NCBI RefSeq assembly: GCF_000427095.1
Contig: NC_021487.1
Location: 932,266 to 996,265 of the forward strand
Reading direction: 5' to 3'
Source: Chthonomonas calidirosea T49
Lineage (GTDB): Bacteria > Armatimonadota > Chthonomonadetes > Chthonomonadales > Chthonomonadaceae
DNA length: 64,000 nt
Part shown: positions 8,503 to 23,820 of the stretch, in pieces
Position numbering within the stretch: the first letter of the stretch is position 1
How the letters are laid out: every line of letters begins with the position of its first letter
Program-made: the position numbers and the translations under genes
The notes under the pieces: model-generated
Seen by the model: only the letters and a program-made list of their open reading frames with translations
Told to the model about the DNA's origin: nothing
Database searches by the model: none

Positions 8503-8922
8503 AGGACTGAGGACTGAGGACTGAGGACTCAGGACTGAGGACGGAGGACTGAGGGATGAGAACTCAGTCCTCAGCACTCAGCACTGATGCATGGGAACTC
8601 AGTCCTCAGTCCTCAGCACTCAGCACTGCTGCATGGAACTCAGTCCTCAGCACTCAGCACTGATGCATGGAACTCAGTCCTCAGCACTCAGCACTGAGGC
8701 ATGAGGCATGGAAACTCAGTCCTCAGTCCTCAGCACTCAGCACTGAGGCATGAGGCATGGAAACTCAGTCCTCAGTCCTCAGCACTCAGCACTGATGCAT
8801 GGGAACTCAGTCCTCAGTCCTCAGCACTCAGCACTGATGCATGGAACTCAGTCCTCAGTCCTCATTACTCAGCACTGATGCATGGAACTCAGTCCTCAGT
8901 CCTCAGCACTCAGCACTGAGGG
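8503..8922. repeat. Left heptad-repeat tract (VNTR) at the island edge
   Basis: The tract is built from 7-base modules (TCAGTCC, TCAGCAC and variants). It starts with the modules in the GGACTGA orientation for about 60 bases, then switches to the TCAGTCC orientation, so its beginning can fold back on the rest. The second part is a tandem array of about eight units of 34, 41-42 or 49 bases, each opening with GATGCATGGAAC or GAGGCATG and differing mostly by whole 7-8-base modules. It runs into the last codons of the helicase gene, whose final residues PSVLSAED are encoded by repeat sequence. Similar tracts lie at 22954-23130 and 23559-23820. Confidence 0.9.
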
Positions 8923-11900: not shown

Positions 11901-14181
11901 TCTGCGCTGCGGCGAGAAACCGCCCATCTTCGCTGAGTTCTTCGAGGCCCTCGTACTCAACGGCCACCAGACCTAGGTTCTCTAGCGAAGCGCGCTGCCG
12001 GCTGTAGCGGGTGAGCTCATTGGCAACCTGGTAGGTGAGAGCGTCCAACCAGCGCCTCTGTTCGGGACGGGATGGGCGATGAGTAATCAGGCCTATCTGC
12101 AGGAAGCGGTCGAAGAGCCGCTGCGGAAGCTCGGTCAGGTAGAGGCCGTCCGCGCCAGCCTCCCGAAGCTCGTGCGCGAGAACGTGACGCAGGGCAAAGA
12201 CCCGGTGCTTGTCCTTCGTGTAGCCGGCCTGGTGGGCTGCGTCCTGCCGGTTGTCGGTGAACACCAGGAGCTTGCGGTCCTCACCCTGCAGATGGTCGAG
12301 GTGGTGGTTAGCGAGGACCGAGACGGTCGATGCCGTCCCCGTGTGGAGGGGGGTCACGATGTCTGCGCGCGTGTAGCTGTCCCCGCAGGCCGGGCAGGTG
12401 TTGAGCGTGCCGCGGTGCAGCAGCATGCGCACCGTTGCGCGGTTGCAGGAAGGACACGTCGCCCCCGGCTGTGGAACCAGCCTGCCGCAGCCAATGCAAA
12501 CACCGACCTCCGAGAGCCTCCCCTCGGCTTTCTTCTGTCTACGGTCTCTCCGTTCCCGTTCCTGCGCTCTCTCTGCCTCCGCCCTCTCTTCGTCCTCCTC
12601 GTCGAAGGTCCCCGGCCCTTCGTCCAGCTCGCGGATCTCGTGGGTGAGGAACCCGGTGTACTCGCCGCTGAAGAAATCGCTCGTGCCGATCGGCCGATCG
12701 TCATCCTCCCCGGCGAACCGCACCTTTACGAAATCCTGCCCGCAGGTGCGACAAAGAGCGGCGGGATGGGCGACCGATCCGCAACGGGGACATTCGGCAC
12801 CCCCGTGGGGCACCAACGTACGGCACTCAGGATTGAGACAGAGTCCGACGTCATAGACGCCGTGGAAGAAGGTATGGAGCTTCGGCCGCAGGCGCGGCGG
12901 ATGCTCCTCGTCGCCGACGCTTCCCACGAGAAGATAGGCCTCGATCTCCCTCTGTACGCGCTCGGGGTCGGCGTCTTTCCTCTCGGGCAGCGTCTCCCGT
13001 AGGTGCTCGACCGCCTCGGCCACCGTGCGGGGCTCGGTAAAGAACTCCTCCAGGGCGCGCACGACCTTATTGCCCGCAAGCACCGCGCCGACGCGATTGG
13101 CGACCGCCCCCTCAGCGGGACAGCTCCGCCCGGTGAGGGCTTCGGCGAGCGCTATGACCTTCTGCTCGTCGTTGGGATCGAGCGCCAACAGCGCCGCCTC
13201 ATCTAGGTCAGCAAGCGGTGGAGCGTATTCCTCCTCCGCCTCGACCCGCCGCATGTAGGACTCCGCGACGATATCCTCTGGCCGGACCTCCTCGCCGAAA
13301 AGGGTGGAGGCAAACTGCGCCAGGGCTTTCAGGCCATCGCTCTCCGAAGCCACCGTGGCCGAAGTGCCGATGGCGACCAGATCCCCTGAACCGAGGCCCG
13401 ATTGGGTCTTGAGGCGGCGAAGGAGACAGGCGATCTCGGTGGCGAGCGCCCCACGATAGCTGTGCAGCTCGTCGAGCACAAGATAGCGAAGCGAGGGCTG
13501 GAACATGTGTCGGTCTTCGCGGCGCACCAGCAGGAAGTCGAGCTGCTTGTAGTTGGTGAGCAGGACGTCCGGGGGATTCTCACGAATGGCAGCCCTGCTA
13601 AGGCGCTCCGTCTCTGCGGGCTCCTCGCGCAGGGTCAGACTGGCCGAGTCGCTCTCGCCCGTGTAGAGGCCAAAGGAGATGTTCAGACCGGTCCCTCGGA
13701 GCAACCGGCGGAGGCGCTCAAGCTGATCATGGGCCAGGGCGTTCATCGGGTAGACAATGATCGCCTGGAGACCCTCAACGCCCCCGGCCTTGCGGCGAAG
13801 AATGCCGTCCAGCATGGGCAGGAGGAACGCCTCGGTCTTTCCCGAGCCTGTCCCGGTGGTGACCACGAAGGAGCGCCCGGCGCGGCCGATCTGGAGGGCG
13901 CGCTCCTGATGGGCGAACAATTGGCCCTTGCCAAATGGCCAGCGGACCTGGAGGAGACCGGGATGCGCTTCACCCATGCGCACCAGCTCCTCAAGCGTGG
14001 GACCGAGGGCAAAATCCCTGGCGAGCGTGACGTAGGGCCCCTTGACCACCACGTACGCCCGCTCCAGGTGCTCTTCGAACTGCTTGCGGAGGTGCGGGTC
14101 GAGGAACCGGTAGGTCGTGCGCAGGAAGCTGCGGTACTCCTCAATGAGATTGCGAACGGCAAGGGGAATGTTGGGGGTCAT
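8896..14181 (-). CDS. Giant DEAD/DEAH helicase with DUF1998-like and nuclease-like C-terminus (defence)
   Basis: A 1761-residue defence-type helicase. Walker A (TTGTGSGKT) is at residues 108-116, the DEAD-type box is DELH (237-240), and motif VI is QRVGRAGRR. Several Cys clusters follow: C-x4-C...CPRCG...CRTCG at about 448-480, CIGCG/CPSC near 555, another near 950, and CPDCG near 1480. The part with VFYETVPGGAGYLEEM and CSRACYRCLKHY is typical of the DUF1998/DrmB-like region also found in DruE of Druantia. The last 110 residues (VPDFAWPDAKVAVYCDSYAY, then D-x-K-x-x-Y-L-x-x-x-G-W) resemble Vsr/DUF559-type endonucleases. The ATG at 14181 overlaps the upstream methyltransferase stop (ATGA), so the genes are translationally coupled. 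The final residues and stop fall inside a repeat tract, so the natural C-terminus may have been replaced. Role by family: DNA translocation and interference with phage DNA, with the methyltransferase marking self. Confidence 0.85.
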   Translation of the reverse strand: MTPNIPLAVRNLIEEYRSFLRTTYRFLDPHLRKQFEEHLERAYVVVKGPYVTLARDFALGPTLEELVRMGEAHPGLLQVRWPFGKGQLFAHQERALQIGRAGRSFVVTTGTGSGKTEAFLLPMLDGILRRKAGGVEGLQAIIVYPMNALAHDQLERLRRLLRGTGLNISFGLYTGESDSASLTLREEPAETERLSRAAIRENPPDVLLTNYKQLDFLLVRREDRHMFQPSLRYLVLDELHSYRGALATEIACLLRRLKTQSGLGSGDLVAIGTSATVASESDGLKALAQFASTLFGEEVRPEDIVAESYMRRVEAEEEYAPPLADLDEAALLALDPNDEQKVIALAEALTGRSCPAEGAVANRVGAVLAGNKVVRALEEFFTEPRTVAEAVEHLRETLPERKDADPERVQREIEAYLLVGSVGDEEHPPRLRPKLHTFFHGVYDVGLCLNPECRTLVPHGGAECPRCGSVAHPAALCRTCGQDFVKVRFAGEDDDRPIGTSDFFSGEYTGFLTHEIRELDEGPGTFDEEDEERAEAERAQERERRDRRQKKAEGRLSEVGVCIGCGRLVPQPGATCPSCNRATVRMLLHRGTLNTCPACGDSYTRADIVTPLHTGTASTVSVLANHHLDHLQGEDRKLLVFTDNRQDAAHQAGYTKDKHRVFALRHVLAHELREAGADGLYLTELPQRLFDRFLQIGLITHRPSRPEQRRWLDALTYQVANELTRYSRQRASLENLGLVAVEYEGLEELSEDGRFLAAAQNAGLQPDTALNLVQAVLDVMRKNRAVAYDGRPETGTDLAFFTEYIDPSKEHRYRELEGEPYAVRFPDRDRAPKAFALDRPDHIRNSSRLMGFVQENPRAGQLTATHKLVARLVGGREPAEAFLHAVVPLLVEYEVLVSVRFPIPAREQVRGLQALQVDPRRIRLRFTQEGYRCNACQTWRAYELPTCPTPKCQTGCLVPVLLDRENYYVRLYLERSPGRLKIDEHSAQIGEEERTRRETDFKEGRLDALVCTPTLELGVDIGPLLTVVLRNAPPTPANYAQRVGRAGRRLRIGFVSTFCSGGTHDRHAFLRPEWFVSGRFEPPRLRLDNPQIVFRHLRAYLLSRLDAQLPFLLKELLDDVQHPSRWRREALDQLFGEVHSRRDELVEELLKVMARDRDLGLVGRYSREDITAVVDGFQNELIAVLERWWHRVEQLDREFREFSKIGSTRQDQRKAKARQRAYYEITQDPERAYILNYLSTQQLLPAYQFPVETFSLDPGVVDTPTIYRAAAIAIEEFAPGNFIYANGHKLRSIRVLYPGGPGAAAMQSARSDAEAAGRLQAFHFCEACDEVVESGRNSCPRCAAPLGQATDVVFVDAFEAEESFRITSEEESRQRQFFDRREALLAQSAVMCRVYPYALHPVELLKLAEILVTNWGPLDRKTGEGRRFWLCPDCGRHLPYNPEDKTHERQVRQWREDHARFCRGELVQLVLAHRFQADCLILNLPGREDAAPIGRRIIPQTAVTLAEALRAGAGRLLELELDELGVFVRRPLAGSGTEQIVFYETVPGGAGYLEEMAARLPEVAQEAQRVLYDHDCSRACYRCLKHYRNQRWHSLFNKDLVRDVLVAMANLDRVQPETANHGAGAARLKQMIDARSSVSDTTFSRYPKGVIEEPLRAALERLGVTDGDRDFEVRDEQGRIVTVPDFAWPDAKVAVYCDSYAYHGNPDILELDAKKRNYLQRKGWGVLAFWGQTILRDADGCARQVVELLKARRPSVLSAED

Positions 14182-17100
14182 GACATGTCCCTCCTTTCAT
14201 GAGGCAGAAGGCCCATCTTCCGTAGGCCGTCAAGCGCATCGGTGACACGGCCCAGGGTAAACGCCTCCCGCGAGAGTTTCGGCTGCCACACAGGGACGGA
14301 CCGGATGTAGTCCAAGATGGCCTCCGGCGTCACAGATTTACCCTGGCTCTGCAGCTCCACCGCTGCCAGGTGCACAGTGGTCCAGCGCTCGAGCGTTTCA
14401 TCTCTGAAGGTGCGGAACTCTTCCAGAACCCGCTCGGCCGACCTGGTGTCGATATACCACGCAGCATAGCCCCGGGCTTCGTCGATGTTGGGACCTGGTT
14501 CAAAATGGGTGTCGTCCCACGCCACCAGCCAGCCCTTCTCGCGCACGGCGATGTCTTCGGGTCCTTGGTAGCGGAGGCCGGGGTCGTAGGGACCGGCGGC
14601 CTGCTTGGAGAACTCGGTGAAGAGGCCCGTCCCCGTGGCCGCTTCGATGAGGTAGAGCATCTTCTGCGCCCGGAAGCGGCTCACCGGGTAGCCCGGGGAA
14701 TAGAGTTTGTGGACGACCCAGGCAAGGACGGCCGCTTGCTGAAAAGCTGGATTAGCCGGCTGGCGTGCGGGCTTGGTTTCGTAGACCTCCGAGGTTTCGG
14801 CGGCACGGGCAAGCCCCGCTGTCGAGATAGCGTAAACCTTCGCTCCTTCCACCTCCCGCTTCCATTCTTGGACCCGCTCCTGCAGATACGCATAAAACTC
14901 CGGGCGCTTGCGGGCGAAGACGGGGAAGGTGGAGAGGATGTATTCGAAATCGTCGGGCGTGAGGCCGTAGGCCTCGGCGACGGCGCGGTTGGTGAGCCAG
15001 ATGGACGGCCAGAGCTCGCGCAACTCGCTGAGATGGCAGACAGGTTGGCGGGCGACGCTACGGCTGGGTGCAATGGACAGCTCACGGACATTCGATACAT
15101 GCGGCACCGCTGCGCGGGAAACGTGGGTAAAGTTCATCGTGCTGGACACGCGGAACCGGATCATGAAGTCGAAAGCGAGTGAATTGAGCACCGAACTCGC
15201 GATGTCCGTAGCTACTGCTGACGTCGAGACGATCGGGAGCTTGTTGTTCGCACACGACCGCTCCGGCAGCACCGCTGCGATGCAGGTGCGCTCGTTGGTG
15301 TTGCTCGCGATGTCGCGGAAGACGAGCTTGGGGCCGGGGTCGGGGAGCCGGCCGTACTTCTTCTCGCACGCCTCGAGGCTCACCCAGCGCTCGATGGGCC
15401 TGATGTCCACCAGGAACTGCTCGATGTGCTTGCCCTCGTAGAGCGGCCAGAAGCCCGCCTCGGCCATACGGGCGCGGATTTCGGGCCATGCGGCGGGGTC
15501 GTAATAGGGCGGTTGCGAGGTGGTGCCGGAAACGGGGCCGAGGATCTGACGGGGGTTGTAGAGCCTGCCGGTCTCGGAGTCCGTCCACAGGTCCCGGTCG
15601 TTGGTCATGTCGAATTCTCTGTAGAACCGCGCGTTCCAGGTGCCGGGGCCCCGGTCGCCGAGAAGCGGTCGGGGGTTCACCGGGTTTCCTTCCACGTCGT
15701 AGCCGTACATCTTAAGCAGGATCTCCCGGTCCCGCGGGGAGCGGTATTCGAGGAAGGCGAGCGTTCCTGGCGAGAGGCGCTCCAGCTCCCGACGGCGGAC
15801 GGGCACGAACCAGTCCCGGTAGCGGGCGGTGGCGTCCAGCTCCGCCAGGTCGTGGCGCATGAAGGCGGCCTCGAAGCCGTCCTGCTCGGCTCGACCCTTC
15901 CGAAAGACGAGGCTCACGAACTTGTATCTGGAATCGATCGGAAAGATCTTCTTGCGGTTCTCGAACGCGTAGAACCGCTCGATCTGGGCTTCCTCCAAGA
16001 GCAGGTAGCGCAGTCCTGTGCAGCCCTCGTTGTTGTAGATCGCCGAAGGAACCACGAAGCCTACCCGGCCACCCTCGCGGGCAAGTTGCCAGGCGCGCTC
16101 AACGAAGAACTTGAAGGCGTCCGGGTCGCCCCCGGTGCTCTTGCCATCAACCTTCCAATCCTGGAAGTGGAAATCGCCGCCTTTCTTGAGGCAGGCGGCC
16201 AGCGTGTTGATGCGCGCCTCGTGCGCCTTGAACTCCGCGGCCAGTCCAGGGTTCTCGCGCTGGAGCTCGCTGATCCTGCGATCCAGCTCCCCGCCCACGA
16301 AGGCGCGAATGAGGACGTCGTAGCGGCCATAGAACTCCTTGCGGTCGGGCTTGATCTTGTCCCACGGCGGGTTGCCGAGAATCGCGTCGAAGCCGGGTCG
16401 GTCGCCGTCCAGGAACACCTCCGGGAACTCGAGTTCCCAGTGGAAGAAGCGCTCGCGCTCGCGCACTTTCTCGAAATCCTGCCACCAGGGCCGTCTTTCC
16501 GCATAAGCACGAAGGCATTCGGGATCGCGTCCGGGATCGTGGATGTGGTTCGTGAGCTTATCCCATTCGTGCCAAATCTCCGGCACGAAGGCGCTCGCGG
16601 AGCGGAGGTCGAAAAGCAGCTTCGCGGCGGCCAGGGTCTTCTCGGCCTTCGCGCGCAGGTGTTCCTTGTAGCGCTGCTCATCGGTGCTCTCGGGCTCGAT
16701 GCCCTCGCGACGGAGGTCCTCGGGCCGTGCGTCGTCGATAAACCTGCGCAGGCGGGCCGCTTCGCGGATGGCCTCGCGGATGTTTTCCTGGAAGGGGAGG
16801 AAGCCCTGGCTCTGGTCTTTCTTCTGTTTTCCCGGGAGCGGTGGCTGCTCCAGGCGTGCCATCCAGGTTCCCAACAGCGAGTTGCCGCAGCGGATGTGGT
16901 GCTGGAAGTAGGTGAGCGGCCGGTCGCCGGCGAGCGACTCGATCCAGAGCGCCACACGGGCGAGCTCGACCGCCGTCGGGTTCAGGTCCACGCCGAAGAG
17001 GCAGCGTTCGGCGATGCGCCGCTTGCACCAGGCGCGGGCCTCGGAGTTGGCTGCCCGGGCCGCTTCGTCGCTGGCGCGCCAGTTGTCGTCCCACCCTTGG

Positions 17101-18917
17101 CCCGTGGTGGACCGGAACTCGGGCGGCGCCTTGCCGCGATGCTCCTCGACGTAGGCGCGGTGCAGCGCCTGGCCAAGGAACCGCATGGCCTCGACCAGGA
17201 AGTGGGCGCTTCCGCAGGCGGGATCCAGCACACGCAGGCGCTCGATCTCGGCGGCGGTCTTGCCCTCCACCAGCGGTCCCAAGGCGTGGCGCACCAGGTC
17301 CTGCACCAGGGCCCGCGGGGTGTAGAACGACCCGGAGCCCTTCCTGCCCGGGCCGGGAACGAAGTGGAAGGTACCGGGTTCCAGCCGCCGCAGGAGCCGC
17401 GCGGTGCCGCCCCGCTTGAGGCCGTCCTCGGCCCCTTCCTCCGCCTCCGGCTCTTCCACCGCCGCTTCGGGGTCGAGATCCGGCTCTTCCGGCTCGTCTT
17501 CTTCCGCGTCGGCGCCCTCATCCTGGGCCTGCGGATGTAGGGGCTCGGCCGCAGTCCTCTGCACCACGGCGAAGTCGCCCTTGAGGACGAGGTTCTTCTG
17601 CTCGCAGAGTCGAACGAGTTCTTCGGGCGTAAGCACGTACTCGCGCCCCTGAACCCGCGCCTCGATGCAGGTCTCCCGGGCGATGCGGGGCTCGTATTCG
17701 AGGAGCCCCTCGTAGACCGCACCCAGGTTCTCGATGTCCAGTTCCCGGAAGGAGACCCGCTCGCGCCCTACTCCGCGGCGCGGTTGGGTGGTAGCCAAGT
17801 CGAGGATCAGGCGGGCCACCTGCTGGTCGGGCAGGCGGGCCTCGTCCAGGATCCTGCCCGCCGGGGTCTCGCGGCTGAAGAAGTCGCCGCCCCGGGGCGG
17901 GATGTGCTCCCAGGGCGTGATGGACGGTAGGCCCTGGTCGTAGATGCGGAAGAGCGCCCGCAACCGCTCCCAGAGGGCGCAGCGGTTCTCCGGCCATGCC
18001 CTGCTGGGTGTGCGCAGGATCCCCTCCAGCAGGTCGGTGGCCGAGTAGCTTTCGCGGTACAGCTGGTGCTCGTCCAGACGCGGGTCGCGGGCCTCGGCGT
18101 AGAGGATGAAGAGCAGGCGGTAGAGGGCGAGGAGGGCGGCGTCGCGGTAGGCCTGCAGTTGTCTCTCGTCGAGATCTAGGGGTGAGGCGATCACCTTCCG
18201 GGCGACGGCGTCGGCGATGAGGCCCGAGACGAGGGATTCGGCCGCCCGAAAGACGGAGCCCTTCAGGTCCTCAGAAACGCGCTCGGCGTGCGCCCGGCTC
18301 TCCCGCTCGATCGCTTCGATGGGCGGAGGTTCGTCGTCGGCGTACAGGAACGTCGCGGCGGCGAAAAGCTTCATGAAGACGGCGAAGGCCTCCGGATCCT
18401 CCTCGTCATAGAGACCTGCGAGGTCCGCCTCGAGGAACGCGCCGCGCGGGCCGTCGCCGGTGGCGCGGATCAGACGGATCCGCTCGCCGGTAACCAGGAA
18501 CCCGTGGCAAAGCCTTTTCTGGGCCAGGGCCTCGCCCAGCCGGTGCATGGGGTTCGCTCGGCCGCGGCCCGAATCGAGGTCTTCGTCCCACTCGCCGCAG
18601 TAGACGAGAAGCAACGGCCTCTCGCCGGCCTGTTCCGCCTCGGCGCTGGCGAAGAGGGCGTGGATACGCTCCTCACCCGCTCCCAGGTGGAAGCCCAGGA
18701 CATCGCGAAGCAGCGGACGGATGAACCGCTCGCGCGTGGCCGCAGCGTCGGCGACCCGGCCCTCGGCTCGCTCCCGGATGCGCCGGAAACGGGCTTGCGC
18801 GATCTCGATGGCGCGGTCGGCGAGGCGGCCGGCCCGGCCTCGGCGCCCGCCGAAAACGCTGCCGAGATAGTAATCGGAAAAGAAACCCCGGACGTTGCGC
18901 AGGTGCTTCAGATTCAT
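14178..18917 (-). CDS. Eco57I/PglX-like N6-adenine DNA methyltransferase (defence)
   Basis: A 1579-residue DNA methyltransferase of the gamma class. Motif I is VLDPACGSAHFLVEAM (about residue 566) and motif IV is LGNPPW (about 848), the N-P-P-W form of N6-adenine enzymes. The N-terminal 550 residues resemble the helical front part of Eco57I/PglX/DrmMI proteins; an acidic low-complexity stretch lies near 455-485. After the target-recognition region, a C-terminal segment near 1420 (QKMLYLIEA, then KQAAGPYDPGL) resembles a domain found at the end of some restriction specificity subunits. The start overlaps the end of the SNF2 reading frame (ATGA at 18914-18917) and the stop overlaps the helicase start. 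In DISARM- and BREX-like systems the homologous enzyme marks host DNA; whether it also cuts cannot be told. The reading frame appears intact. Confidence 0.88.
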   Translation of the reverse strand: MNLKHLRNVRGFFSDYYLGSVFGGRRGRAGRLADRAIEIAQARFRRIRERAEGRVADAAATRERFIRPLLRDVLGFHLGAGEERIHALFASAEAEQAGERPLLLVYCGEWDEDLDSGRGRANPMHRLGEALAQKRLCHGFLVTGERIRLIRATGDGPRGAFLEADLAGLYDEEDPEAFAVFMKLFAAATFLYADDEPPPIEAIERESRAHAERVSEDLKGSVFRAAESLVSGLIADAVARKVIASPLDLDERQLQAYRDAALLALYRLLFILYAEARDPRLDEHQLYRESYSATDLLEGILRTPSRAWPENRCALWERLRALFRIYDQGLPSITPWEHIPPRGGDFFSRETPAGRILDEARLPDQQVARLILDLATTQPRRGVGRERVSFRELDIENLGAVYEGLLEYEPRIARETCIEARVQGREYVLTPEELVRLCEQKNLVLKGDFAVVQRTAAEPLHPQAQDEGADAEEDEPEEPDLDPEAAVEEPEAEEGAEDGLKRGGTARLLRRLEPGTFHFVPGPGRKGSGSFYTPRALVQDLVRHALGPLVEGKTAAEIERLRVLDPACGSAHFLVEAMRFLGQALHRAYVEEHRGKAPPEFRSTTGQGWDDNWRASDEAARAANSEARAWCKRRIAERCLFGVDLNPTAVELARVALWIESLAGDRPLTYFQHHIRCGNSLLGTWMARLEQPPLPGKQKKDQSQGFLPFQENIREAIREAARLRRFIDDARPEDLRREGIEPESTDEQRYKEHLRAKAEKTLAAAKLLFDLRSASAFVPEIWHEWDKLTNHIHDPGRDPECLRAYAERRPWWQDFEKVRERERFFHWELEFPEVFLDGDRPGFDAILGNPPWDKIKPDRKEFYGRYDVLIRAFVGGELDRRISELQRENPGLAAEFKAHEARINTLAACLKKGGDFHFQDWKVDGKSTGGDPDAFKFFVERAWQLAREGGRVGFVVPSAIYNNEGCTGLRYLLLEEAQIERFYAFENRKKIFPIDSRYKFVSLVFRKGRAEQDGFEAAFMRHDLAELDATARYRDWFVPVRRRELERLSPGTLAFLEYRSPRDREILLKMYGYDVEGNPVNPRPLLGDRGPGTWNARFYREFDMTNDRDLWTDSETGRLYNPRQILGPVSGTTSQPPYYDPAAWPEIRARMAEAGFWPLYEGKHIEQFLVDIRPIERWVSLEACEKKYGRLPDPGPKLVFRDIASNTNERTCIAAVLPERSCANNKLPIVSTSAVATDIASSVLNSLAFDFMIRFRVSSTMNFTHVSRAAVPHVSNVRELSIAPSRSVARQPVCHLSELRELWPSIWLTNRAVAEAYGLTPDDFEYILSTFPVFARKRPEFYAYLQERVQEWKREVEGAKVYAISTAGLARAAETSEVYETKPARQPANPAFQQAAVLAWVVHKLYSPGYPVSRFRAQKMLYLIEAATGTGLFTEFSKQAAGPYDPGLRYQGPEDIAVREKGWLVAWDDTHFEPGPNIDEARGYAAWYIDTRSAERVLEEFRTFRDETLERWTTVHLAAVELQSQGKSVTPEAILDYIRSVPVWQPKLSREAFTLGRVTDALDGLRKMGLLPHERRDMS

Positions 18918-19870
18918 CGTGCAGGTCCCTCCGGCACCAGGAAGAGGGCGCCCAAAGGCCGAGGTGGCGGGGGATCGGACACTTGCTCGAATTCTGCGAT
19001 CTCTGCTGATCGCTGATCGCGGTATTCCCTAACGACCTCGCGGCGTGCGGCAAAGCCATGGTCCTCGAGCTCGGCGAAGAGGCTTTGCTGTCCGGTGCTG
19101 TCGATCATCCCCCGCGCGTGACGCTCCTCCTCGTCGAGTTCCCGAAGCCGGTCCCTGACGTCCCGCTCGAGGTCCTGCCGCAGTATGTCGGCCTGCCGGC
19201 GGCGGTGGGCGCGGAGCTCCTCAGCACGACGCGCGAGCCAGCGCTCGGCCTCGGCTCGAGCCGCCTCGCGAAGCGCCTCGAACCTTCCCTCGAAGAGGCT
19301 GCACAGGGCCTCGCGCGGGACCTCGCCAGCCTCGTCGGGTTCGAGCCAGCGAAGGTTCTCCTCGGGCGCGCCCAGGATTCCGCCGTCGAGACCGACACGG
19401 ATCGTCAGAAGGTGTTCCTCCAAGAGTCCGCCGCCCCCCTCGATCCTGCCGAGCCATGTGAACAGCGCCGAGGGAACCTCTGACGCTGGAACGATCCGGG
19501 CGGCGAGCCGCCGGGGCGGCAGACCTCGAACGTTCGGGTACACCAGGAGCAGCCGCCGTCGGGCGTCGGCCGCGAGGGCCCGGACCAGGGGATGCAGCGG
19601 GGTGATGTACTCGACCTCCTCGGGCCGCGTCCGCGCCGCGACCGAGCGGCGAAAGGTGGCCGCCGGGTAGACGGCTTCCACTCCCTCGCCCCGGTAGGAC
19701 CACGGCACCTCGATCCGGTAGATGCCCTCCGTGCCGGGCACCGGTGTGGCCGCCTTTGCCCCCAGCATCTCAAGGACAAGTCTCTCGAAAGATTCGTCGT
19801 CAGGCAGGAGCGGCTCCGGCGTATCGAGCGCGTCGAGGATGCGCCGCAACTCATCTTCGGACGCCCCCGC
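18914..19870 (-). CDS. SNF2/DrmD-like helicase, C-terminal part (frameshifted off)
   Basis: From the G5 run at 19864-19868 to the stop at 18914, this frame continues the SNF2 protein: GASEDELRRILDAL, a LHPLVRALAADARRRLLLVY block and a long charged coiled region (RAEAERWLARRAEELRAHRR). Such a tail is usual in RapA-like and DrmD-like SNF2 proteins after the second RecA lobe. Removing one G from the G5 run joins it to the upstream part as LLLASGASEDELRR, giving about 1002 residues in total, close to the length of DrmD-type proteins. The same frame is open further up to a possible ATG at 19960, but that extension is an out-of-frame shadow of the helicase. No obvious own ribosome site is visible, so without frame correction it may not be made. 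Confidence 0.7.
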   Translation of the reverse strand, partial: AGASEDELRRILDALDTPEPLLPDDESFERLVLEMLGAKAATPVPGTEGIYRIEVPWSYRGEGVEAVYPAATFRRSVAARTRPEEVEYITPLHPLVRALAADARRRLLLVYPNVRGLPPRRLAARIVPASEVPSALFTWLGRIEGGGGLLEEHLLTIRVGLDGGILGAPEENLRWLEPDEAGEVPREALCSLFEGRFEALREAARAEAERWLARRAEELRAHRRRQADILRQDLERDVRDRLRELDEEERHARGMIDSTGQQSLFAELEDHGFAARREVVREYRDQRSAEIAEFEQVSDPPPPRPLGALFLVPEGPAR

Positions 19871-21920
19871 TCGCAAGCAGGAGAGGTTGCAAGTCACGCA
19901 CGAACTGTTCGGTGCGGTCCTCGAAGGTGCGCACCAACCCCTGCTTTCCCGACTCGGCATCGCCCGCCTCCGCGTCGAGGCGGACCAGTTCCTGCCAAAA
20001 ATCCTGCTGGCCTTGGATCAGTCCCAGGATGTCCGGGGTCGATACCCGATCCGCTGCCATCTGCTCGATCTTCTCGACGAGACGGCGCAGGACATCGTCT
20101 TCAGGGCTATCGGGGTAGTAGAGGAAACGGATGATCGGCTCTCGGCTCTGGCCGTAGCGGTCCACGCGACCGTTGCGCTGCTCCAGCCGGTTCGGGTTCC
20201 AGGGAAGCTCCACGTGGATGACCCGGCGGCAGTGATGCTGGAGGTTGAGCCCCTCGCTCGCTGCGTCCGTGGCGAGCAGAACGCGGATCTCTGGGCGCTC
20301 GAACAGCTCCTGCCGCCGGAGCCGCTGTCCCCGGGTCAGGCCGCCGTGCAGAATGACGTAGTGGTCCGCCAGGTCGGGATCGGCGTCGATGCGGGCGCGG
20401 ATCGCTTCGAGCGTGTCTCGGTATTCGGTAAAGACGATGACTTTTTCCGCCGGGTCGTCGGCGAAGACGCATTTGAGTTCCGCGAGCAGAGCCTCAATTT
20501 TTGCATCCCGATCGGGCAGTTTTTTGAGGCGCGCCCAGATGCTTTTGAGGCTCTGCAGTTCGGAACGGCGGCGTTTCTCGTCCTTCGGGATGGCGGACCT
20601 GAGGATGCGCCGCGCCGTCCGCTCGCTCTGCGATTCGGTGAGGGGAAGATCTGCCTGATAGTCCCGAAGCTCCGCGTGGGAGGGGGCTTCCTCCCGGGCT
20701 TCGGCCTTGGCGAGCGCCTCGAGCCGATTTTCGATTGTGGTAAGCAGTGCCCGGCGGGACGAAAGGGCCCGCTTCTTTACGATCTGCATGGCAAAGCCGA
20801 CAAGCTCCGCCTCGTCGGTCCCTTCGGCCTGACGTGCGGTTCGCGAGCAGTAGGACGAAACCTTCTCGAGGAGCTCCTTTTCGGGCCCTGAGAGAGGAAC
20901 CGGCAGCCCTTCGACCTTGCGCTGAGGGAAAACTGGCACCTCGCCACCGTCGACCCGGCGTCGGATCTGTCGCTTCATCCGCCGGATCATGGCCGTCTCC
21001 ACGCGCCGGCGAAGGTCCTCTGGCGACCCCGAGAACGTGGCTAGGGTCGGTTCCACCAGTTCCACGAGGGAGCGGAAGGCATGCGCGTAGCCGTTGTGCG
21101 GCGTCGCCGTGAGGAGGAGCAGGCTGCGGCTCGCATTCCGGAGCGCCCCTCCGAGGCGGGTCCGCTGCGTGCGGTAGGGATTCTGCGGTGTCCCCGACTC
21201 GGCAAGGGCATGCGCCTCGTCCACGATGATCAGATCCCAGCGCTTGCGCAGCGCCCGGTTCTGCACCGTCTCTTTCTTGAGGTAGTCGATCGAGGTGATG
21301 ACATAGGGAAGTGCATCCCACGGACTCACCCCCGCCGGCAAGGTTTCCTGCGCAGCGGCCAGGTCGGAGGCGTTTCCCACGATCTGGAACACCAGCCCGA
21401 ACTTTTCCAGCAACTCCGCGCGCCACTGCTCCATAAGCCCTGGGGGAGCGACGACCAGCACGCGGCGCACACGCCCGCGGGCCATCAGTTCCAGCATCGC
21501 GAGTCCCGCCTCGATGGTCTTCCCGAGCCCCACGTCGTCGGCGACGAGCAGGCTCGGGCGCGGCTTGGCCAAGAGGCGCAGCGTTGGCGCCAGTTGATAG
21601 GCCTCGAGCGCCACCCGCCCGAAACGGGCTCCCGAAAGGAGACCTGTCTCCCGCACCAGCGTGGCGGCCAGGATTCGGTGGCTGCTCGACCACGATATCA
21701 GGGAATCGAGCTGGCGCAGTTCGAAGCAGAGGTCCTCCGTAGGCAAGGGCTGCGGTTCCTCGGGCGGCACCGACACGGGAAGGCGGATGGGCTCCTCGCC
21801 ATCCAGGGCTTCGAGCGTGAGCAGGTGGTGCCCATCCGCTATCTTCTTCACTTCCCGGACGATCCAGGGTCGGTCGCGAACCACAACCCGAGTGTTCGTC
21901 TCGATCAGCATGTCGGTCAT
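19851..21920 (-). CDS. SNF2/DrmD-like helicase, N-terminal part (truncated by frameshift)
   Basis: The 690-residue ATPase portion of an SNF2-family, RapA/DrmD-like helicase. Walker A is ADDVGLGKT (about 128-135), Walker B is IIVDEAHALAE, motif III is LLTATPHNG, and the second lobe has VIFTEYRDTL, ATDAASEGLNLQ and QRNGRVDRYGQ with the arginine fingers. I chose the ATG at 21920 (MTDMLIETN) because GGAG stands 8 bases upstream; the same frame is open further to 22094, where it overlaps the ATPase relic. The frame ends at a TGA reached only because of the G5 run at 19864-19868. In DISARM class 1, the homologous SNF2 protein partners with an adenine methylase. This copy keeps all helicase motifs but loses the C-terminal 310 residues unless the frame is restored. 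Confidence 0.85.
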   Translation of the reverse strand: MTDMLIETNTRVVVRDRPWIVREVKKIADGHHLLTLEALDGEEPIRLPVSVPPEEPQPLPTEDLCFELRQLDSLISWSSSHRILAATLVRETGLLSGARFGRVALEAYQLAPTLRLLAKPRPSLLVADDVGLGKTIEAGLAMLELMARGRVRRVLVVAPPGLMEQWRAELLEKFGLVFQIVGNASDLAAAQETLPAGVSPWDALPYVITSIDYLKKETVQNRALRKRWDLIIVDEAHALAESGTPQNPYRTQRTRLGGALRNASRSLLLLTATPHNGYAHAFRSLVELVEPTLATFSGSPEDLRRRVETAMIRRMKRQIRRRVDGGEVPVFPQRKVEGLPVPLSGPEKELLEKVSSYCSRTARQAEGTDEAELVGFAMQIVKKRALSSRRALLTTIENRLEALAKAEAREEAPSHAELRDYQADLPLTESQSERTARRILRSAIPKDEKRRRSELQSLKSIWARLKKLPDRDAKIEALLAELKCVFADDPAEKVIVFTEYRDTLEAIRARIDADPDLADHYVILHGGLTRGQRLRRQELFERPEIRVLLATDAASEGLNLQHHCRRVIHVELPWNPNRLEQRNGRVDRYGQSREPIIRFLYYPDSPEDDVLRRLVEKIEQMAADRVSTPDILGLIQGQQDFWQELVRLDAEAGDAESGKQGLVRTFEDRTEQFVRDLQPLLLASGGVRR

Positions 21921-21994
21921 GGTGAAAGCTCCGTTCTCTGGGATAGTGATGCGGCTGACCGCCCAGCGAACGGGCAAGTTGGCCGCCGGTCGGT

Positions 21995-22439
21995 CTAAGC
22001 GAATCGATTCCGCAGCGTTCCGGTGGCCTTGGCGTGGCCGCTCGAGGTAGACGCGAGGTCCAGCGCCGTGGCGTCGTTCGTCAGCGCGGTCCAAAACTCT
22101 TCGCCTGCCTGCCGCGTCGCTCCGCTTTGCGGCGCAGGCAGGTTCGTGTTGGTCAGGCGAAGGAACACTTCATCGGCCTTCTTCTCGTCCTTGAAGCGGA
22201 GATCACCAACATCAGGTGCGACTTACCGGTGCCGTAGTTGCCGACGACAAGCAGTCCTTTGTTATCGACGGCCTGATCGAACTGAAGCTGGGGGATCACC
22301 AGGTGAGTCATTCGTTCGGCCATCTCGTCGGAGGGGACATAGGTGCTGACCAGCTTTTTGCGCTTACGGCTACATCGGCATCCCGTAGCTGGACGACGGA
22401 CTCGATGGGCTCGAATTGGACTAGATTTTCGTACTTCAT
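21995..22439 (-). pseudogene. DUF6079-like ATPase, internally deleted relic
   Basis: The ATG at 22439 follows a strong ribosome site (AGGAGAGG). The start reads [20 protein letters not shown]; after a frameshift near 22385 it continues as [17 protein letters not shown] and [17 protein letters not shown], the N-terminus and Walker A of large DUF6079-type ATPases of defence islands. Right after Walker A, near 22200, another frame takes over ([20 protein letters not shown] up to [16 protein letters not shown] and a TAG at 21995), which reads like the C-terminal end of the same protein. About 1000 middle codons are therefore missing, judging from the usual size of the family. It lies directly upstream of the SNF2 gene in the same operon. 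Confidence 0.75.
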
Positions 22440-22477
22440 CTGTATGGCCTCTCCTATCTCAAACGAGCTGATCAGGC

Positions 22478-22930
22478 TCAATCCTCGAAAAAATCCCGGT
22501 CTATTGATTTCAGCTCATAAACAGATTCGGTAGTTACGCCCACGTTATGTTTGATCATCAAGCGCGCCATGGTCGTCCCATCGATCAGAACGACTCGCGG
22601 CTCCAGCCGATTGACATAATCGCGTGCCTCCCTGGTGAATTCCGAGCTTGTAATGAAGACGCCTTTCTTTGCGCCTCTTCCGTGCAACGCGCCGACAAAC
22701 TTCTGAACTTCAGGACGCCCCACCGGATTGGCCCATTGCTTGGCTTGAACGTAGATGACGTCCAGGCCCAATTCATCTTCTTTGATGCCGCCGTCGATTC
22801 CTTCATCGCCGCTCCCACCCACGACCTGAGCAGCTTGAGGCAGGCCGCCTCCGTACCCCATCGCAACGAGGAGCCGGATCACCAAGCGCTCGAACAACGC
22901 TGGATTTGCCCCGCGCACCTTCTCCAGCAC
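22478..22930 (-). CDS. Mrr-like restriction endonuclease, catalytic domain only
   Basis: A 150-residue Mrr_cat domain of the PD-(D/E)xK fold: LVIRLLVAMGYGG, then GSGDEGIDGGI (catalytic Asp) and VIYVQAKQWANPVGRPEVQK (Q-x-K). Full-length Mrr proteins have about 300 residues with an N-terminal winged helix that binds DNA; here the frame opens only at 22953, where the heptad repeats begin, so the N-terminal half has been cut off. Mrr enzymes cleave modified DNA. It is the first gene of the defence operon in transcription order, 38 bases before the ATPase relic. The listed start is the GTG at 22930; it is doubtful that the fragment is expressed or active. Confidence 0.75.
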   Translation of the reverse strand: MLEKVRGANPALFERLVIRLLVAMGYGGGLPQAAQVVGGSGDEGIDGGIKEDELGLDVIYVQAKQWANPVGRPEVQKFVGALHGRGAKKGVFITSSEFTREARDYVNRLEPRVVLIDGTTMARLMIKHNVGVTTESVYELKSIDRDFFED

Positions 22931-22953: not shown

Positions 22954-23130
22954 TGAGGACTCAGGACTGAGGACTCAGGACTGAGGACTGAGTCCTCCTC
23001 CCTCAGTCCTCATCGCTCAGTCCTCAGTCCTTCCCATCCCTCAGTCCTCATCCCTCAGCACTCAGTCCTCATCTCTCAGCACTCAGTCCTCATCCCTCAG
23101 TCCTCATCCCTCAGTCCTCAGCACTGAGAC
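22954..23130. repeat. Heptad-repeat tract A, right side of island
   Basis: The same 7-base modules as at 8503-8922, here mostly TCAGTCC and TCATCCC/TCATCGC. It begins with about five modules in the GGACTGA/GGACTCA orientation and then flips to the TCAGTCC orientation. It directly abuts the truncated mrr reading frame on its left and the end of the four-helix-bundle gene on its right. Confidence 0.88.
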
Positions 23131-23137
23131 GATCGAT

Positions 23138-23521
23138 TCATTTCCCGCCATCCCTTCGTTGCTTGTCCACAGCAGCTCGCAACCCACCAAGGATGCGAGC
23201 AACTTCTTCTGCCTGTTTCATCAATCGGTCGAAGCTCGTTTGATCAAGATAGCCGACATCAAGGGCTACGTAGAGCTGCGAACGGACCTCTGCACAAGAG
23301 GCCTTGGCGGTTGAAAGAAACTGGTGAAACTCACCACGCCCCCCACGTTCGAATCCTTCCGCGATATTCGACATAATCGAAACCGCAGCTCGTTGAATCT
23401 GGCCACTCAAGCCCAAATCCTTTGCAAAGGCACCTTGCCGCGTCACCTCGTATATGGCCTCCGTAAGTTCCCGCGCCTTCTGCCAGGCAATCAACTCTTC
23501 GAAACGCTCGACTTTCGCCAT
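23138..23521 (-). CDS. Four-helix-bundle protein (TIGR02436/S23, Avd-like)
   Basis: A 127-residue protein of the four-helix-bundle family first known from intervening sequences in 23S rRNA genes and related in fold to Avd of diversity-generating retroelements. The motifs are [18 protein letters not shown] at the start, then [20 protein letters not shown] and [19 protein letters not shown]. The ATG at 23521 (MAKVERFEE) gives the canonical start; an upstream in-frame ATG at 23560 adds 13 residues derived from the repeat border. It lies alone between heptad-repeat tracts A and B, on the same strand as the defence operon. The molecular role of the family is unknown; proteins of this type bind nucleic acid in the Avd case. 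Confidence 0.88.
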
Positions 23522-23558
23522 AAGCAGAGCCTTATCTTGTCCACCATTCTTGAGCAGC

Positions 23559-23820
23559 AAAGCTCAGTGCTGAGTAATGAGGACTGAGGACTGAGTTACC
23601 ATCCCTCATCGCTCAGTCCTCAGTCCTTCCCATCCCTCATCCCTCAGTCCTCATCGCTCAGTCCTCAGTCCTTCCCATCCCTCAGTCCTCAGTCCTCATC
23701 GCTCAGTCCTCAGTCCTTCCCATCCCTCCTCCCTCAGTCCTCATCCCTCAGTCCTCAGTCCCCATCCCTCAGTCCTCCTCCCTCCGTCCTCAGTCCTGAG
23801 TCCTCAGTCCTGAGTAACGA
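23559..23820. repeat. Heptad-repeat tract B
   Basis: A third tract of the same family. It opens with modules in the GGACTGA orientation, then turns to TCAGTCC modules. Inside, a 31-base unit built on TCATCGCTCAGTCCTCAGTC and ending in TTCCCATCCC occurs three times nearly unchanged; a version of it is also in tract A. It ends at about 23820, after which sequence typical of the host resumes. Confidence 0.88.

Follow-up and report, generated by a model that had tools for sequence, protein, structure and literature searches.

Is the small four-helix-bundle gene of Chthonomonas calidirosea T49 that lies embedded in arrays of a heptanucleotide part of a mobile unit, as an earlier note on this locus proposed, and if so, to which kind of element does it belong? 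Genes of the TIGR02436/PF05635 family are annotated in many genomes without a function, and they are called ribosomal only because some of them lie in intervening sequences of 23S rRNA. The window analysed here is a stretch of 64,000 nt of contig NC_021487.1 (positions 932,266-996,265), taken from a genome of 3.44 Mb in one contig, and all coordinates below are window positions. Matches to CTCAGTCCTCA with at most one mismatch number 50 in the window, where 1.2 are expected and 100 shuffles gave a maximum of 5; apart from one stray single match they fall at 8508-8905, 22954-23120 and 23578-23813, which bears out the proposal that a common array flanks the gene on both sides and recurs in a third tract. 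A 15-mer of the TCAGTCC-type word occurs 26 times in the whole 3.44-Mb genome, always inside these three tracts, and its reversed control pattern occurs 0 times in the same sequence. The gene itself (23138-23560, minus strand; an open reading frame of 140 aa) sits between two of the tracts and is the sole match to TIGR02436 in the genome by profile search (E 5.9e-33), and it also matches PF05635 23S_rRNA_IVP (E 2e-36).

The putative unit runs from 22954 to 23815, about 862 bp with no strand assigned, within five bases of the span 22954-23820 originally given for it. Every tract is inverted internally, with a short GGACTGA arm followed on the plus strand by a long TCAGTCC arm. Read along that strand, the unit begins with a left terminal arm of GGACTGA/GGACTCA words, G-rich at its 5' end (22954-22992), and continues with the left tract's inner TCAGTCC array (22993-23120), which lies downstream of the gene. 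The gene, with its S23/Avd fold, is followed by the right tract's short inner GGACTGA words (23578-23595), a long TCAGTCC array upstream of the gene with a 45-bp higher-order period (23604-23781), and the right terminal arm (23782-23815). The outermost 34 nt on either side (22959-22992 and 23782-23815) are 97% complementary, and the unit therefore has terminal inverted repeats; homologous units elsewhere insert with their ends at their arrays. The third tract (8503-8919) holds no gene and consists of a GGACTGA arm at 8503-8554 and a TCAGTCC arm at 8563-8919; because it has the 25-mer GAGGACTCAGGACTGAGGACGGAGG in common with the unit's right end, it looks like, and probably is, a gene-less relative. 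Beyond a single full unit and a single tract lacking the gene, the C. calidirosea T49 genome has no other copies. Adjoining the unit, at 14178-22930, is an island that encodes an Eco57I/MmeI-type N6 methylase, an open reading frame without Pfam match, an SNF2-type helicase and a gene with an Mrr-type nuclease domain, and that on these predicted domains resembles a defence island of the restriction or DISARM-like kind.

The earlier note had also stated that related genes in other genomes lie beside repeats of this kind, and this stands in part: arrays flank most relatives, but TCAGTCC is chiefly the word of a single protein clade, and most of the other copies have their own. This was found in a gene-first sample of 90 loci, comprising 30 from a phylum search for TIGR02436 made blind to repeats and 60 taken by coordinates, chosen by score and from multi-copy genomes, many of them metagenome-assembled. 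The literal TCAGTCC word is absent from the first 30 (0/30), and a refutation on this ground was dropped because a tandem-repeat search revealed locus-specific words, among them the inverted pairs TCGGTAG/TACCGAC, GAGTCTT/CTCAAGA and GGTGTTG/CACCCAA. For most TIGR02436 genes the word is a unit of 7 bp, sometimes 8-10 bp, private to each copy (array period 7 in 64/86 and 8 in 14/86), although some loci have no detectable arms. Arrays scoring at least 14 lie within 300 bp upstream of 48% and downstream of 48% of the 90 loci, compared with 2.7% of 220 control stretches taken from the same 90 loci. The arms of one locus match each other in inverted orientation with a median score of 20, as against 4 for arms of other loci and 4 for direct orientation, and in 44 loci the own partner arm is the best of 59. 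Base composition is polar as well, with G exceeding C in 86/98 upstream arms and C exceeding G in 92/103 downstream arms. From these matches, the two arms of one copy evidently carry one common word.

The predicted enrichment of repeats near this gene family was borne out against controls. Two control families of about 30 loci each, ParE and GxxExxY (TIGR04256), were considered; the latter was rejected as a negative control since it bears inverted short-unit repeats of its own, and ParE was chosen for that reason. Strong inverted flank repeats occur at 49/88 TIGR02436 loci and at 0/30 ParE toxin loci (p=3.6e-9), and outside the original phylum an inverted-flank score of at least 13 is reached by 41/48 TIGR02436 loci, compared with 2.5% of mismatched pairs.

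The words differ among the copies of a single genome, as in a genome (G125) in which seven copies carry seven words, and a REP-like single word per genome was rejected on this account. Across genomes the word goes with the protein: it is shared by 60% of protein pairs at a normalised score of 0.7-0.8 and by 0.4-1% of pairs below 0.5. When the TCAGTCC loci are excluded it is shared in 14/71 similar pairs (permutation mean 0.67, maximum 5), and sharing is then partial, at 40% of the most similar protein pairs. The eight TCAGTCC loci require four changes on the protein tree, with seven of them clustered in a single group of nine. Four of these loci were located by their word, but their protein similarity was not a selection criterion. 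Among the hosts of these loci are Armatimonadota, Nitrospirota, Acidobacteriota and sulphate-reducing lineages. At an argF/argG-type junction (gene names from sequence), two species have related units with the words GTGGAGA and GTGGAAA, each alike in both arms. By these comparisons the word demonstrably follows the protein's lineage and crosses phyla together with it.

The TCAGTCC word also occurs in many places that have no gene. In a word-first sample, for which one genome per species was scanned with an 18-mer of the word, at least 116 loci were found in many phyla, and the gene is present in only four of them, in all four directly beside or between the arrays. Among the loci listed, the recurring anatomy is a GGACTGA arm separated by 21-210 nt of spacer (median 63) from the TCAGTCC arm that follows it; the arms stand in this order 30 times and in the reverse order once, alongside many single arms. 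The ends of the gene-less units are sharp, with A before GGACTGA in 25/27 and T after TCAGTCC in 26/27, and none of the 27 has a target duplication of three or more bases. TIGR02436 genes are present in 43 of the 50 host genomes of the word that were searched, often many per genome. In one Blastocatellia genome a TCAGTCC doublet gives 165 overlapping matches and the reversed pattern 0, the forward matches listed falling in about 31 separate places. The same genome carries a four-helix-bundle gene framed by TCAGTCC arms (L259), and a second gene copy lies in GAATTGA arms (L263) with four gene-less GAATTGA doublets alongside. In two genomes spacers that are 79-95% alike recur in largely different flanks, which indicates that arms and spacer move as one. 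The existence of gene-less copies explains why some genomes have far more TCAGTCC arrays than genes, as is likewise the case for REPINs. In one genome (G238; L386-L394) the gene-less units have in common a spacer that contains inverted words resembling CTTGACA...TGTCAAG, a possible promoter or protein site.

Empty sites, which the earlier note had suggested looking for in close relatives, are present in Nostoc plasmids and at a groES-groEL junction, and such pairs of filled and empty sites are what is expected of a mobile element in general. In a conserved operon of Nostoc plasmids, three plasmids carry a four-helix-bundle unit with AGTCAGA arms between two genes, and in five homologous operons the unit is absent and the same junction is a 3-nt gap. 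One gene further in this operon, one plasmid has a second unit, whose arms are of the GGGGAAAA type, and eight lack it. In plasmid pNPM1 of strain N6 the four-helix-bundle gene is itself interrupted, between GAGCAG and ATAAAG, by a gene-less unit whose word is of the same type. There is no target duplication at this insertion and none is evident at the Nostoc junctions. A pair of Calothrix plasmids was rejected as a case of fresh transposition, since their common neighbours point to segmental duplication. In one genus of Armatimonadota the groES2-groEL2 junction holds arm-bounded units of at least four arm kinds in six species and is empty, at about 12-90 bp, in five others. A further six species of that genus (L357, L360, L362, L368, L375 and L380) have, near groES2, an armless and divergent four-helix-bundle relative, with mutual identity of 55-95%, which is possibly a domesticated copy.

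The filled and empty junctions demonstrate, as far as aligned genomes can, that full and gene-less copies insert whole, with their ends at the arrays and with no target duplication, and the unit bounded by arrays is very probably mobile. That heptads arose by replication slippage, with the gene adjoining by accident, is barely credible. Variation in array length, the higher-order repeats, and the presence of the TCAGTCC word without the gene in most of the at least 116 word-first loci would suit such an origin, which is refuted by the inverted, privately matched arms and the empty sites and is opposed also by the 0/30 of the ParE control, the exact ends and the 30:1 polarity of gene-less pairs. 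Carriage by phage was likewise rejected, with no match in a phage collection. Overall the best explanation, and a probable one, is a small and widespread mobile element in which inverted word arrays surround a four-helix-bundle gene.

What the encoded protein contributes is a separate matter. For the TIGR02436 protein, structure prediction gives a helical bundle with high confidence (mean pLDDT 91.8). The solved structures closest to it are 2GSC and 2RLD of the S23 family; next come Avd from the retroelement of a Bordetella phage (4DWL; E 0.012, TM-score up to 0.84 when scaled by target length) and the complex of Avd with reverse transcriptase and RNA (8UB7). That PF05635 and Avd are homologous has been noted before (PMC10053308). 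Across 36 diverse sequences R57, S61, N65, E68 and E91 do not vary and Q54 and S88 hardly do, a strong conservation of polar residues. No nuclease, recombinase or transposase domain was recognised in the protein, which matches only PF05635 and TIGR02436-type models, and it appears unlikely that the protein is itself the catalyst. The evidence leans modestly toward a word-specific mobility factor. The element is bounded by a pair of inverted arrays of a short word, of which the 5' array is G-rich and the 3' array its complement, and these enclose one S23/Avd-fold gene in a full copy and a spacer of 20-100 nt in a gene-less one. In the scheme proposed, the protein would, by homology and predicted fold, be a nucleic-acid-binding pentamer like Avd, and it would recognise its own word once a transcript or single strand had folded into a hairpin of arm upon arm. 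Such recognition would allow full and gene-less copies of the same word to insert elsewhere, presumably mostly in sense orientation within transcribed operons; the scheme allows either that the protein performs the chemistry itself or that it recruits a host nuclease, polymerase or transposase.

Two features of the loci can also be read in terms of RNA. Neighbouring genes are co-directional with the element's gene in 84/97 cases upstream and 63/80 downstream (both in 43, neither in 1), figures that have no genome-wide baseline and must be read in the knowledge that ordinary genes sit in operons too, and the transcript can fold strongly on itself (z -8.9). Both would be expected if the arms were a transcript hairpin that is cut by RNase III or stops transcription, insulating the gene in operons, and if the arms matched because pairing is selected; 23S intervening sequences, moreover, encode proteins of this family and have a terminal stem that RNase III cleaves (PMC4990558). 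Pairing alone, however, needs neither tandem words nor a fixed G-rich 5' arm, and neither the same word in gene-less copies nor a word that follows the protein. Processing of this kind, which would account for retention but not for spread and may hold alongside mobility, is quite unlikely to be the explanation.

It is also conceivable that the gene is cargo in a hairpin-ended unit moved by another enzyme, such as a Y1 HUH transposase of the IS200/RAYT type or a reverse transcriptase, and that the protein helps only its own unit or the host. The missing target duplication is consistent with Y1 chemistry, genomes that have the gene contain Y1_Tnp more often than those without it (78/103 and 46/98, p=4e-5), and likewise RVT_1 (p=0.007), and three Y1_Tnp genes are found in the C. 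calidirosea genome. On the other hand, neither domain was found in 20 of the 103 genomes with the gene (many of which are incomplete), and a general enzyme would leave both the link between word and protein lineage and the differences of word within one genome unexplained. A reverse transcriptase as a needed partner was rejected, there being no RVT_1 match in the C. calidirosea genome or in 66/103 genomes with the gene. Movement by such an enzyme with the gene as a passenger is accordingly considered unlikely, and a mobility factor that recognises its own word is preferred.

Comparison with known systems places the element near several of them. The analogy to REP/RAYT partnerships drawn in the earlier note holds: in both cases a few- or single-copy protein gene is flanked by an inverted repeat, gene-less inverted doublets of the same repeat with a short spacer are dispersed (in other genomes; C. 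calidirosea has one tract), target duplication is missing, and repeat and protein lineage go together. Membership fails, since the element has no Y1 HUH transposase and no common REP sequence; its protein, a four-helix bundle of the S23/Avd kind, contains no HUH or Y1 (PF01797) motif, and its ends are tandem 7-bp words that vary by copy, with several word types per genome. The 23S rRNA intervening sequences of Coxiella and Leptospira that bear an S23 open reading frame have terminal inverted repeats forming a stem around it and are held to be selfish and possibly once mobile (PMC4990558). The present unit likewise has a PF05635 open reading frame (E 2e-36) and stem-forming terminal inverted repeats, but it lies between protein genes, its arms are tandem words and gene-less families of it exist. 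None of the sampled TIGR02436 loci overlaps 23S by blastn with the C. calidirosea 23S gene, and a direct tie to 23S rRNA was rejected; the intervening sequences may nonetheless be special cases of the element. With diversity-generating retroelements it has in common the Avd fold of its protein (4DWL, 8UB7), but the unit includes no reverse transcriptase and the C. calidirosea genome has no RVT_1. TAACTGA heptad repeats are known from Beggiatoaceae, cyanobacteria and Bacteroidetes, and a mobile repeat-binding protein has been suggested as one possibility for them (PMC4679880). These and the cyanobacterial STRR repeats are, like the arrays described here, intergenic tandem 7-bp words with a patchy distribution across phyla, although they are described mainly as direct repeats with no gene family linked to them, whereas in the element the arms are inverted, a protein family is linked to them and empty sites are seen. 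The TAACTGA repeats may be gene-less forms of it. MITEs and DNA transposons, finally, also have terminal inverted repeats and both autonomous and non-autonomous copies, but the element's full copies have no known transposase, it makes no target-site duplication and its ends vary by copy.

A literature search, which covered few subscription papers or preprints and leaves an earlier description possible, found no paper that links heptad arrays with S23/four-helix-bundle genes. Because the tests of membership failed and this limited search found no precedent, the element is provisionally seen as a new class; were rRNA intervening sequences to prove to bear word arrays, the unit would be better seen as a form of that known system. 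Tentatively, and with a little less than even confidence, it is proposed that the units form an unrecognised class of transposable element in many phyla, in which an S23/Avd-fold protein, the sole mobility factor encoded, recognises a short word that is specific to its lineage and repeated in both terminal arms, protein and word change together, the 23S intervening sequences are members that landed in rRNA, and the TAACTGA and STRR repeats are gene-less derivatives. S23/IVP proteins are now tied to a concrete anatomy of matched inverted word arrays, filled and empty sites and non-autonomous copies, and two old puzzles, the role of these proteins and the origin of orphan heptanucleotide repeats, become testable. 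If the proposal is true, ends that are private to a copy, identical in both arms and tied to a lineage would be a new way of keeping ends recognised, and the natural pairs of protein and word would be a ready set.

Some repeats in the sampled genomes depart from this anatomy. Arrays in Okeania (L081, 3517-3730) are spaced exactly 100 bp apart, unlike inverted pairs, and an Okeania genome (G204) contains 19 matches to TIGR02436, of which several have internal stops. In the Blastocatellia genome (L108, 318-460) a stretch of about 100 bp that contains a GGACTGA array has been duplicated in tandem. The GxxExxY genes (TIGR04256; L292-L320) have inverted repeats in 18/29 loci, made up of roughly three ACCACAGAGGACACAGAGA-type units, each 8-10 bp long, with a core that recurs across loci, and on this arrangement they are probably a sister type of element.
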